From assembly GCA_947259305.1 (NCBI GenBank), contig CAMYML010000052.1, positions 1-39,323 of the forward strand: a stretch of 39,323 bases of DNA, given 5' to 3'. This document shows, piece by piece, positions 6,401 through 8,641 of the stretch. Every line of letters starts with the position of its first letter. Positions within the stretch are counted from its first letter, which is position 1. The notes below the pieces were generated by a model. It ran no database searches. It worked only from the letters and a program-made list of their open reading frames with translations, and was not told the origin of the DNA. A program made the translations under genes and the position numbers. Source of the stretch: an uncultured Gammaproteobacteria bacterium (GTDB lineage: Bacteria > Pseudomonadota > Gammaproteobacteria > GCA-001735895).

Positions 6401-7126
6401 GTGACCGTCATCTATTCTTTAAAGAACGTCGTCAAGGAACGGCTTATTGACGGTGTGGGATTTCGCCTGCTGGTTCCTGAAATCCAGATCAGCGCGCAGG
6501 AAAATATCGCGCTGGTCGGCCACAGTGGCTGTGGTAAGAGTACCCTGCTCGATATGCTGGCGCTGATCCTGCGCCCGGATGAAAGCGAGGAATTCAACCT
6601 GCATCCGGTCAATGGCGATAGCCACGATGTCGGCAGGCTGTGGCAGCGTGATAAACAGGGCAAATTGTCGCAGATTCGCAAACAGCATATCGGCTACGTA
6701 TTACAGTCGGGCGGACTGCTGCCCTACCTGACGGTGCGCGAAAATATCGAACTGCCGCGCAAGCTGCTCAAATTGCCCGACGACGATTCGATTAATTCGA
6801 TATCCAGGGTGCTCGGCATCGATCGTCAACTCGACAAGTTGCCCGGACTGCTCTCCGCCGGTGAACGCCAACGTGCCGCATTTGCGCGCGCACTTTCGCA
6901 TCGTCCGTCGATACTGATAGCCGACGAGCCAACTTCGGCACTCGACCCGGTTACCGCGCAAAAAATCATGGCGGTGGTGATGGAAGTTATCAGGGGTCTC
7001 AAGATCACGATGATCACGGCAAGCCACGACTGGGCGCATGTTTACAGGATGGAACTGCGTACCCTCAAGCAGGAGGCCGAGGCGGTTGACGATGGCAAGA
7101 TCTACCAGTCGAGATTCACCGATTGA
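6401..7126 (+). CDS. ABC transporter ATPase, LolD/MacB/TagT type
   Basis: This cytoplasmic ATPase subunit has 241 residues. Walker A is GHSGCGKST at residues 40-48. The Q-loop region reads YVLQSGGLLPYL. The ABC signature is LSAGERQR, Walker B is ILIADEPTS and the switch histidine is in ASHDWAH. All catalytic elements are intact. The start is a GTG 25 bases after the vWA gene. The stop overlaps the permease start (TGATG). Size and signature place it with the LolD/MacB/FtsE group, which powers mechanical work on periplasmic or lipoprotein substrates rather than import. In this neighbourhood the closest functional parallel is TagT of the Pseudomonas threonine-phosphorylation pathway. It could instead be an orphan lipoprotein extractor. 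Confidence 0.9.
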   Translation: MTVIYSLKNVVKERLIDGVGFRLLVPEIQISAQENIALVGHSGCGKSTLLDMLALILRPDESEEFNLHPVNGDSHDVGRLWQRDKQGKLSQIRKQHIGYVLQSGGLLPYLTVRENIELPRKLLKLPDDDSINSISRVLGIDRQLDKLPGLLSAGERQRAAFARALSHRPSILIADEPTSALDPVTAQKIMAVVMEVIRGLKITMITASHDWAHVYRMELRTLKQEAEAVDDGKIYQSRFTD

Positions 7127-8337
7127 TGGCGCAAATCACCAATATAATCCGCCTTAGTTTTCGTGACTACAGCCACGAGTGGCGCATGTCGGGCTGTTTT
7201 ATCATGGCGCTGGCGTCGGTGCTCGCGCCGATGATGATTCTGTTCGGACTAAAATTCGGGATCGTTAGCACCATGGTTAACGAACTGGTGGAAAACCCGA
7301 TTAACCGCGAAATCAGACCGATCGGCAGCGGGCGTTATAATGACGCCTGGATCGAAGCTTACCGTAATCGGGAAGACGTCGAATTTATTATTCCGAAAAC
7401 GCGCGCCCTGGCGGCAACGATTCAACTCAAAAGCGACAGCGCCAGGCGCATCCTGTCTACCGAACTCCTGGCCACCGCCGCGGGCGATCCCTTGTTGGCC
7501 GGTTTATCCAGCCTGCCGCAGGATTATTACCAGGTCGTACTCAGTCATAGCGCGGCGAACAAACTGAAAGTTAAAACCGGCGATCAGATCGATGCCAGCC
7601 TCTCCCGGCAATTCCAGGGCAAGCGCGAACGCGTGCATTTAGTCCTGAACGTGATTGACGTCGCCGATGCGACCGTAACCACGCGCAACGTGGCTTTTGT
7701 TAATCTCGATTTACTGATCGCCAGCGAGCTATTCAAGGATGGCCGCGAAGTCAGCGATCTCGGCTGGGAAGGCAATAGCGATGATTCGATGGAACGGGTA
7801 TATCCGTCTTTCAGGCTCTATGCACGGTCTATCCATGATGTCGAAAATCTGGTCGCCGCGCTCGAAAAAGAGGGCGGTCGGATCAAGGCCAACGTCTCCG
7901 AAATCACGACGGTGAAATCCATCGATCAAAACCTGTCCGTTATTTACTGGATAATCGCCTGCGTCGGAGCGCTCGGTTTCTCCTTTTCGCTGGGTGCAAG
8001 CCTGTGGGCGAACGTCGACCGCAAACGCAAGGAACTCAGTATTTTGCGACTGGTAGGTTTTAAAAGTGGGCGCATTGTGCTGTTTCCGGTACTGCAATCC
8101 TGTTACACCGCGTTGCTTGGATGGTTGCTGGCGGTGCTGGTTTACCTGGCTTTCGAATACCTGATTAATTTTTTTCTGGCGCCGCGGCTCAACCTCGATC
8201 GTGCCCTGTGTTTCCTGCTTACCGAACATTTTCTGTGGGCATTGGCGCTGACCATGGTGATTGCAATATTTGCCGCGATTGTCGGTGGCATGCGCGCGGC
8301 TCGCATCGAGCCGTCCGATGGGCTGCGTGACGTCTAA
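7126..8337 (+). CDS. ABC transporter permease, FtsX/LolC/TagS type
   Basis: The product has 403 residues and the MacB/LolC layout. One transmembrane helix lies near residues 22-45. A large periplasmic domain of about 220 residues follows. Three helices lie at the C-terminal end (about 270-300, 320-345 and 370-395), with the FtsX-family segment containing RKELSILRLVGFKSGRIVLF between the first two. The ATG shares its A with the TGA of the ATPase gene, so the two are translationally coupled and surely form one transporter. With the PpkA-like vWA protein upstream the pair resembles TagT/TagS. In P. aeruginosa TagS and TagT act with TagQ and TagR to control PpkA. No TagQ or TagR candidate is visible here. 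The stop is at 8335-8337, immediately before the regulatory box of a predicted small RNA. Confidence 0.88.
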   Translation: MAQITNIIRLSFRDYSHEWRMSGCFIMALASVLAPMMILFGLKFGIVSTMVNELVENPINREIRPIGSGRYNDAWIEAYRNREDVEFIIPKTRALAATIQLKSDSARRILSTELLATAAGDPLLAGLSSLPQDYYQVVLSHSAANKLKVKTGDQIDASLSRQFQGKRERVHLVLNVIDVADATVTTRNVAFVNLDLLIASELFKDGREVSDLGWEGNSDDSMERVYPSFRLYARSIHDVENLVAALEKEGGRIKANVSEITTVKSIDQNLSVIYWIIACVGALGFSFSLGASLWANVDRKRKELSILRLVGFKSGRIVLFPVLQSCYTALLGWLLAVLVYLAFEYLINFFLAPRLNLDRALCFLLTEHFLWALALTMVIAIFAAIVGGMRAARIEPSDGLRDV

Positions 8338-8339
8338 CA

Positions 8340-8357
8340 TGTAGGACGGGTCTTACA
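8340..8357 (+). promoter_or_regulatory. GacA/UvrY-type upstream activating sequence
   Basis: The 18 bases read TGTAGG-N6-CTTACA. The site known upstream of rsmY and rsmZ is TGTAAG-N6-CTTACA, so 11 of 12 specified bases match with the exact spacing. It begins three bases after the permease stop. Its centre lies about 86 bases before the expected transcription start of the small RNA, a usual distance for this class. Confidence 0.72.
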
Positions 8358-8422
8358 CGAACTATCGCTCAAGATTACATGCCCTGACGCCAAGCCGGAT
8401 AGGGTTGGGAACGCGCCAGGCA

Positions 8423-8428
8423 TATAAT
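8423..8428 (+). promoter_or_regulatory. -10 element of the predicted small RNA promoter
   Basis: A perfect TATAAT is followed by an expected start near 8435. No good -35 hexamer lies 16-18 bases upstream. This fits a promoter that depends on an activator such as GacA bound at 8340-8357. Confidence 0.6.
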
Positions 8429-8434
8429 TGGTTC

Positions 8435-8580
8435 CGTACTCGTAAGGATGCGGGTAAAGGAGATGTAACCTGGATTTATTCCATTGCATCATAGGCAGGA
8501 AGCCTTGCAGGATGCTGCTGGATGAAATAAGCAGGTAATCTTTGGGCCCTCGCTCCTATGGACTGGACGAGGGCCTTTTT
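8435..8580 (+). ncRNA. Predicted CsrA/RsmA-sequestering small RNA (RsmY/RsmZ/CsrB type)
   Basis: The predicted transcript is about 145 bases and non-coding. It contains eight GGA motifs, starting at 8446, 8459, 8472, 8498, 8510, 8520, 8560 and 8565. Several match the CsrB repeats CAGGAAG and CAGGATG. At least three sit in hairpin loops. The first is AGGC-AGGAA-GCCT (8493-8505). The second is GCA-GGA-TGC (8507-8515). The third is CTGCT/AGCAG (8515-8519 with 8530-8534), which holds a GGA at the loop start; the second and third share base 8515, so they are alternatives or adjacent. Two more GGA lie in the terminator loop. RNAs of this class bind several CsrA/RsmA dimers and lift translational repression. 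The upstream GacA-type box and TATAAT, and the strong terminator, support an independent gene. The start is inferred from the -10 and may be off by a few bases. Confidence 0.72.
8545..8580 (+). terminator. Rho-independent terminator of the small RNA
   Basis: GGCCCTCG (8545-8552) pairs perfectly with CGAGGGCC (8568-8575). The loop is 15 bases and contains two GGA motifs, and TTTTT follows (8576-8580). Confidence 0.9.
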
Positions 8581-8592
8581 AATGGCTGAGTC

Positions 8593-8641
8593 ATCCCCGC
8601 GAAAGCGGGGATCTTGTGAAGATGCAGCAATTACAAGATCC
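8593..8641. repeat. GC-rich REP-like palindrome and overlapping inverted repeat before holA
   Basis: ATCCCCGC-GAAA-GCGGGGAT is a perfect 8-bp stem with a GAAA loop (8593-8612). This sequence type is scattered between genes in many proteobacteria. It overlaps a second perfect pair, GGATCTTGT (8609-8617) with ACAAGATCC (8633-8641). The rest of the gap to holA (8642-8794) shows one further 8-bp pair, GCAATTAC/GTAATTGC, and no convincing gene. Confidence 0.6.

Follow-up and report, generated by a model that had tools for sequence, protein, structure and literature searches.

A predicted Gac/Rsm-type small RNA between an ABC permease gene and holA in an uncultured gammaproteobacterial lineage

The Pseudomonas RNAs RsmX, RsmY and RsmZ measure about 110-150 nt, and the enterobacterial CsrB and CsrC roughly 250-370 nt. 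The former (Rfam clan CL00106, with RsmY as RF00195) stand behind a GacA-type palindrome, end in a terminator, carry GGA/ANGGA motifs in loops and linkers, and occur several to a genome. In E. coli the csrB site TGTGAGAGATCTCTTACA has the frame TGTxxGA-N4-TCxxACA and is centred at about -182, and half-sites comparable to YTACA adjoin the palindromes of both csrB and csrC (PMC4682653). Sequestration of RsmA needs multiple GGA motifs (PMC2375449). The Pf1 sRNA of Pseudoalteromonas fuliginea is described as a Csr RNA that is restricted to its genus, has a GacA-type box and comes from outside the usual model organisms (PMC9927453).

We analysed a window of 39,323 nucleotides (the whole stretch of DNA under study) from an uncultured gammaproteobacterium whose closest named relatives are the Olavius algarvensis Gamma 3 endosymbiont and marine gammaproteobacterial MAGs. 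In the window, genes of the leuS, ABC-ATPase and FtsX-permease types precede holA, which is followed by genes for an Aldedh-family protein (probably proA, by position and family), a nucleotidyltransferase and an RNase E/G-family protein. The start of holA itself is probably ATG 8813 and not the mechanically called GTG 8765; homologues align from residues ~5-17, mostly 10-17. The candidate RNA lies in the intergenic stretch running from the permease gene (7123-8337) to holA, in which the following features were placed:

8340-8357, + strand: GacA/UvrY-type palindrome TGTAGG-ACGGGT-CTTACA, 18 bp (from the sequence, its rarity in the genome and its retention in relatives)
8375-8379, + strand: half-site YTACA, offset by 35-36 from the palindrome start in 24 of 26 relatives
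8423-8428, + strand: -10 box TATAAT (from the sequence; mean identity 93%)
~8435-8580, + strand: predicted Rsm/Csr-type small RNA of ~146 nt, its 5' end estimated from the -10 box
8437-8456, + strand: hairpin H1, AGGA loop with GGA 8446-8448 (compensatory changes)
8459-8461, + strand: conserved GGA in the linker 5' of H2 (20/21)
8462-8490, + strand: hairpin H2 (GATGT/GCATC), inner GGA 8472-8474 partly conserved (consensus fold)
8493-8505, + strand: hairpin H3, AGGC-AGGAA-GCCT, with GGA 8498-8500 in the loop (consensus fold)
8510-8512, + strand: conserved GGA in the linker between H3 and H5 (20/21)
8514-8536, + strand: hairpin H5, loop TGGATGAAATAA with GGA 8520-8522 (consensus fold)
8545-8580, + strand: intrinsic terminator (from the sequence; the stem turns over with compensatory changes among relatives)

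The palindrome, the TATAAT and the perfect 8-bp terminator stem with TTTTT that a sequence-only reading had described are all present at these positions. Directly 3' of the terminator, at 8595-8610, there is also a perfect inverted repeat, CCCCGC-GAAA-GCGGGG (CCCCGCGAAAGCGGGG), which occurs once in the window and is possibly a repeat-family element.

We estimate at roughly 0.9 the probability that 8435-8580 is a Gac/Rsm (BarA-UvrY/Csr) regulatory RNA, that is, a CsrA sponge under GacA control. It is like the Pseudomonas RNAs in size, GacA-type palindrome, terminator and placement of GGA/ANGGA motifs, and probably also in having company in its genome, and differs from them in its permease/holA locus, its TGTAGGA-N4-TCCTACA palindrome, and the order and sequence of its hairpins. 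With CsrB and CsrC it shares an 18-bp palindrome of the UvrY type next to a half-site (PMC4682653), GGA-presenting hairpins and a CsrA partner almost identical to that of E. coli; in contrast, it is much shorter (146 nt), carries 5-8 GGAs, and has its palindrome centred at about -86 and not, as at csrB, at about -182 (PMC4682653). It resembles Pf1 sRNA in the described traits given above, but that RNA has about 21 GGA motifs (PMC9927453). None of the Rfam models for RsmY, RsmX, RsmZ, CsrB and CsrC matched the predicted RNA at the gathering threshold, and relaxed thresholds gave nothing meaningful; RsmY (RF00195) scored 13 bits against a cut-off of 57. The RNA is thus new to Rfam and not a known rsmY or csrB, and the literature searched held no described Csr/Rsm RNA from this lineage, which does not prove that there is none. 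It appears to resemble RsmY/RsmZ/CsrB in every feature testable here, while its sequence places it in no Rfam family. The original proposal of a new CsrA-sequestering RNA away from the rsmY and csrB loci is supported by a box and GGAs kept in synteny, by the presence of csrA and gacA, and by the lack of an Rfam match, with CsrA binding itself being predicted.

The palindrome lies 5' of an intergenic promoter and is rare, its relaxed form TGTARGN6CYTACA occurring three times in the 4.29-Mb genome and the reversed-pattern control not once. The family consensus is TGTAGGA-N4-TCCTACA, and a version with at most one mismatch was found in 34 of the 41 family genomes, which are the entire order as sampled. 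The window's own copy has one asymmetric position (TGTAGG/CTTACA), which counts against the GacA reading. Moreover, TGTAGGA-N4-TCCTACA differs from TGTAAG-N6-CTTACA at a symmetric position, as it might if the palindrome served another NarL-type regulator and the RNA were a CsrA sponge outside GacA control. To this alternative we give a small chance: the palindrome keeps the csrB frame TGTxxGA-N4-TCxxACA of TGTGAGAGATCTCTTACA (PMC4682653), and half-sites next to such boxes are known from csrB and csrC. The half-site at 8375-8379 is a possible second GacA contact.

Among the 26 relatives with an anchored palindrome, 25 have 93-96 nt between the start of the palindrome and the start of the RNA; for two of them (L022 and L025), in which the palindrome overlaps the permease stop codon, the value of 93 is counted from the third base of the box. 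The promoter scan found no sigma-70 two-hexamer site, and the -35 region is poor, which would fit an activator-dependent promoter. Mean column identity is 0.83 in the box, 0.81 in the half-site, 0.93 in the -10 box and 0.87 in the GGA-bearing 3' part of the RNA (8485-8542), against 0.41-0.61 in the spacers. This alternation argues for a regulated RNA gene rather than a generally conserved stretch.

All eight GGA motifs that had been claimed within 8435-8580 are there, starting at 8446, 8459, 8472, 8498, 8510, 8520, 8560 and 8565, compared with 4.2 (sd 1.4) in dinucleotide shuffles, of which 0.8% reach eight; among same-length stretches of the window, on both strands, 0.08% have eight or more. 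The conserved core, however, is five motifs (8446, 8459, 8498, 8510 and 8520): besides the two linker motifs, those in the loops of H1 (8446) and H3 (8498) are each kept in 19 of 21 genus members and that in the loop of H5 (8520) in 16. GGA 8472 is kept only to within one nucleotide (16/21), and the terminator-loop motifs 8560 and 8565 show no conservation of position. The expected conservation in relatives therefore held for the box and five GGAs, which are kept in synteny, and failed for three GGAs, which have no fixed place. Tight hairpin loops hold two of the five conserved motifs and a wider loop a third, the other two being linker motifs; the mean unpaired probability is 0.71 for the H1 motif, 0.81 for the H3 motif and ~0.5 for the remaining three. 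The RNA thus carries several conserved GGAs, above chance, in loops or single-stranded linkers.

The predicted RNA has a folding energy of -59.9 kcal/mol (z = -5.2). An alignment of 21 genus sequences (A1) gave as consensus structure a chain of local hairpins plus the terminator; adding the 5' hairpin explicitly gave 90.3% paired cells and 16 pairs that have changed on both sides. The pairing, double-change and covariation values were reached by none of 500 shuffles, and in slid controls pairing fell to 27-43%. Since the 21 sequences are related, the double changes do not count as independent events. Covariation support comes chiefly from H1 and the terminator; H2, H3 and H5, with 93-97% of cells paired, hardly vary and give little of it because they are so conserved. 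The minimum-energy fold of the window's own sequence is a long-range hairpin that pairs some of the GGAs; it beats the best local fold by 4.4 kcal/mol. As a consensus, this hairpin was rejected: covariation lends it no support, and its pairing is 74.1% against 73.9% in shuffled controls, whereas the local hairpins exceed theirs.

The 87% mean column identity over 8485-8542 is more than hairpin loops alone would need, and a small RNA controlled by the palindrome but acting mainly through base-pairing with mRNAs would account for it. We consider such an RNA quite unlikely: the conserved columns centre on the GGA motifs and the stems that present them, csrA is present in the same genome, and there another GGA-rich RNA gene stands behind a copy of the box.

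In the terminator, GGCCCTCG (8545-8552) pairs with CGAGGGCC (8568-8575), followed by TTTTT (8576-8580). A simple terminator scan reported none; with a loop limit of 8 nt it would overlook the 15-nt gap between the arms. The fold closes three further pairs inside this gap. Besides having this intrinsic terminator, the RNA contains no ORF that we found conserved among relatives. That the stretch is no RNA gene but a short coding sequence or an intergenic repeat, as the ribosome-binding-site-like AAAGGAG and the inverted repeat CCCCGCGAAAGCGGGG at 8595 might suggest, is scarcely credible, given that the ATG after AAAGGAG runs straight into TAA, that no ORF is conserved, and that the RNA is single-copy in its own genome and has stems with compensatory changes.

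Searched at the DNA level, 57 genomes yielded the region in 21, counting the window's own; all 21 belong to one genus, and in these relatives the region is syntenic between the permease gene and holA. A comparison anchored on the permease gene reached all three genera of the family, in most members of which the palindrome follows the permease stop. The covariance model R1, built from the genus sequences only, detected the RNA in 29 of 41 family genomes as a single copy, one genome having two matches on separate contigs; the window's own genome has one copy. These matches include two further genera outside the training set, with the RNA always at the permease/holA site (E 6.6e-16 to 6e-8). Outside the family, R1 gave no credible match among 369 genomes of the class. 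A hit in another family (G341, E 0.003) was dismissed as spurious, since the stretch is rich in repeats, lies behind a YajQ-like gene and, as far as it was read, contains no palindrome.

Wherever a relative has the RNA, it sits between the permease gene and holA, as would a cis-acting leader or attenuator acting on holA or a 3' UTR belonging to the permease transcript. Either is highly unlikely: the RNA comes with a box, -10 and terminator of its own, the spacer that separates it from holA is unconserved and highly variable, and two genus members, G004 and G010 (loci L035 and L045), have lost the RNA although permease and holA remain neighbours. In G004 a decayed palindrome (TGTAGGAGCAGTCCTGCA) survives with no RNA behind it, and G010 has none; their lack of the RNA suggests that it is dispensable there.

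A CsrA sponge under GacA control requires partners, and neither csrA nor gacA is missing from the genome. Over residues 1-58 the csrA product is almost identical to CsrA of E. coli. The gacA candidate scores ~266-267 bits, slightly below the NCBIfam equivalog cut-off of 280 for UvrY/GacA, and has a UDG-like gene and then uvrC behind it (gene names there were read from the sequence); uvrC being the usual neighbour of gacA, this synteny supports its identity. A BarA/GacS-like hybrid kinase with HAMP, HisKA, HATPase, REC and Hpt domains matches BarA at 558 bits, clearly below the cut-off of 890, and its orthology is likely, not certain. Csr and Gac components are thus encoded in the same genome as the RNA. 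CsrA matches above the cut-off and strong GacA homologues were each found in 36 of the 41 family genomes; the gaps may reflect incomplete assemblies. Diverged CsrA-like ORFs were also seen: one with two tandem CsrA domains, diverged from canonical CsrA, in the window's own genome (L002:1204-1644, on G000:C50), a similar tandem ORF on G021:C56, and short single ones in several relatives.

Of the remaining two palindromes of the genome, the second (G000:C269 4235-4252; locus L064:1501-1735) is flanked by an alpha/beta-hydrolase gene and by a ttcA-like gene, which was identified by eye in a fragment without a Pfam match; the palindrome is followed by a TATACT box, six GGAs and a terminator. The locus has relatives within the genus (L076, L080-L084, L090), and a conserved stretch 5' of its terminator, TCTCTCCTCGAGATA, could pair with the GGA-rich segments. 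It is probably a second Rsm RNA, and the RNA at 8435-8580 would, as the best reading, be one of at least two Rsm/Csr sponge RNAs in this genome. The third palindrome (G000:C319 2848-2865; L065:1166-1518) stands directly 5' of a conserved ORF of 70-90 aa that has a GGA at its ribosome-binding site and no Pfam or NCBIfam family match; the arrangement recurs at L078, L086 and L092, and the ORF is a possible protein-coding direct GacA target. As two of the three palindromes precede GGA-rich RNA genes, the box is tied to Csr function independently of the locus at 8340-8580. In a sister genus, three loci (L093, L096 and L098) have a palindrome-preceded, GGA-rich, terminator-bearing RNA with shared sequence.

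Tentatively, the three palindromes could make up the whole direct GacA regulon of this uncultured, partly symbiotic family, comprising two unrelated-looking CsrA-sponge RNAs (8435-8580 and the one beside ttcA) and a small conserved protein gene activated by GacA and repressed by CsrA at its ribosome-binding site; we regard this as possible but doubtful. We know of no described Gac/Rsm system with such a third arm.

In the Gac/Rsm reading of 8435-8580, phosphorylated GacA would occupy the palindrome (8340-8357), perhaps together with the half-site (8375-8379), and switch on a promoter whose -10 is good but whose -35 is poor. The resulting RNA of ~146 nt would terminate at its own terminator, 5' of holA, and its conserved GGA motifs would bind several CsrA dimers, drawing CsrA off mRNA leaders and so changing the translation of CsrA targets.

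The finding would place a Gac/Rsm switch with an RNA family of its own in an uncultured lineage of marine gammaproteobacteria for which Rfam catalogues no such RNA; the Olavius algarvensis Gamma 3 endosymbiont belongs to this lineage. An alignment and a covariance model are now available with which the RNA can be found in relatives, and the palindrome variant can be used to list candidate GacA targets in these genomes. Together they offer a testable hypothesis of how such bacteria may switch life styles.
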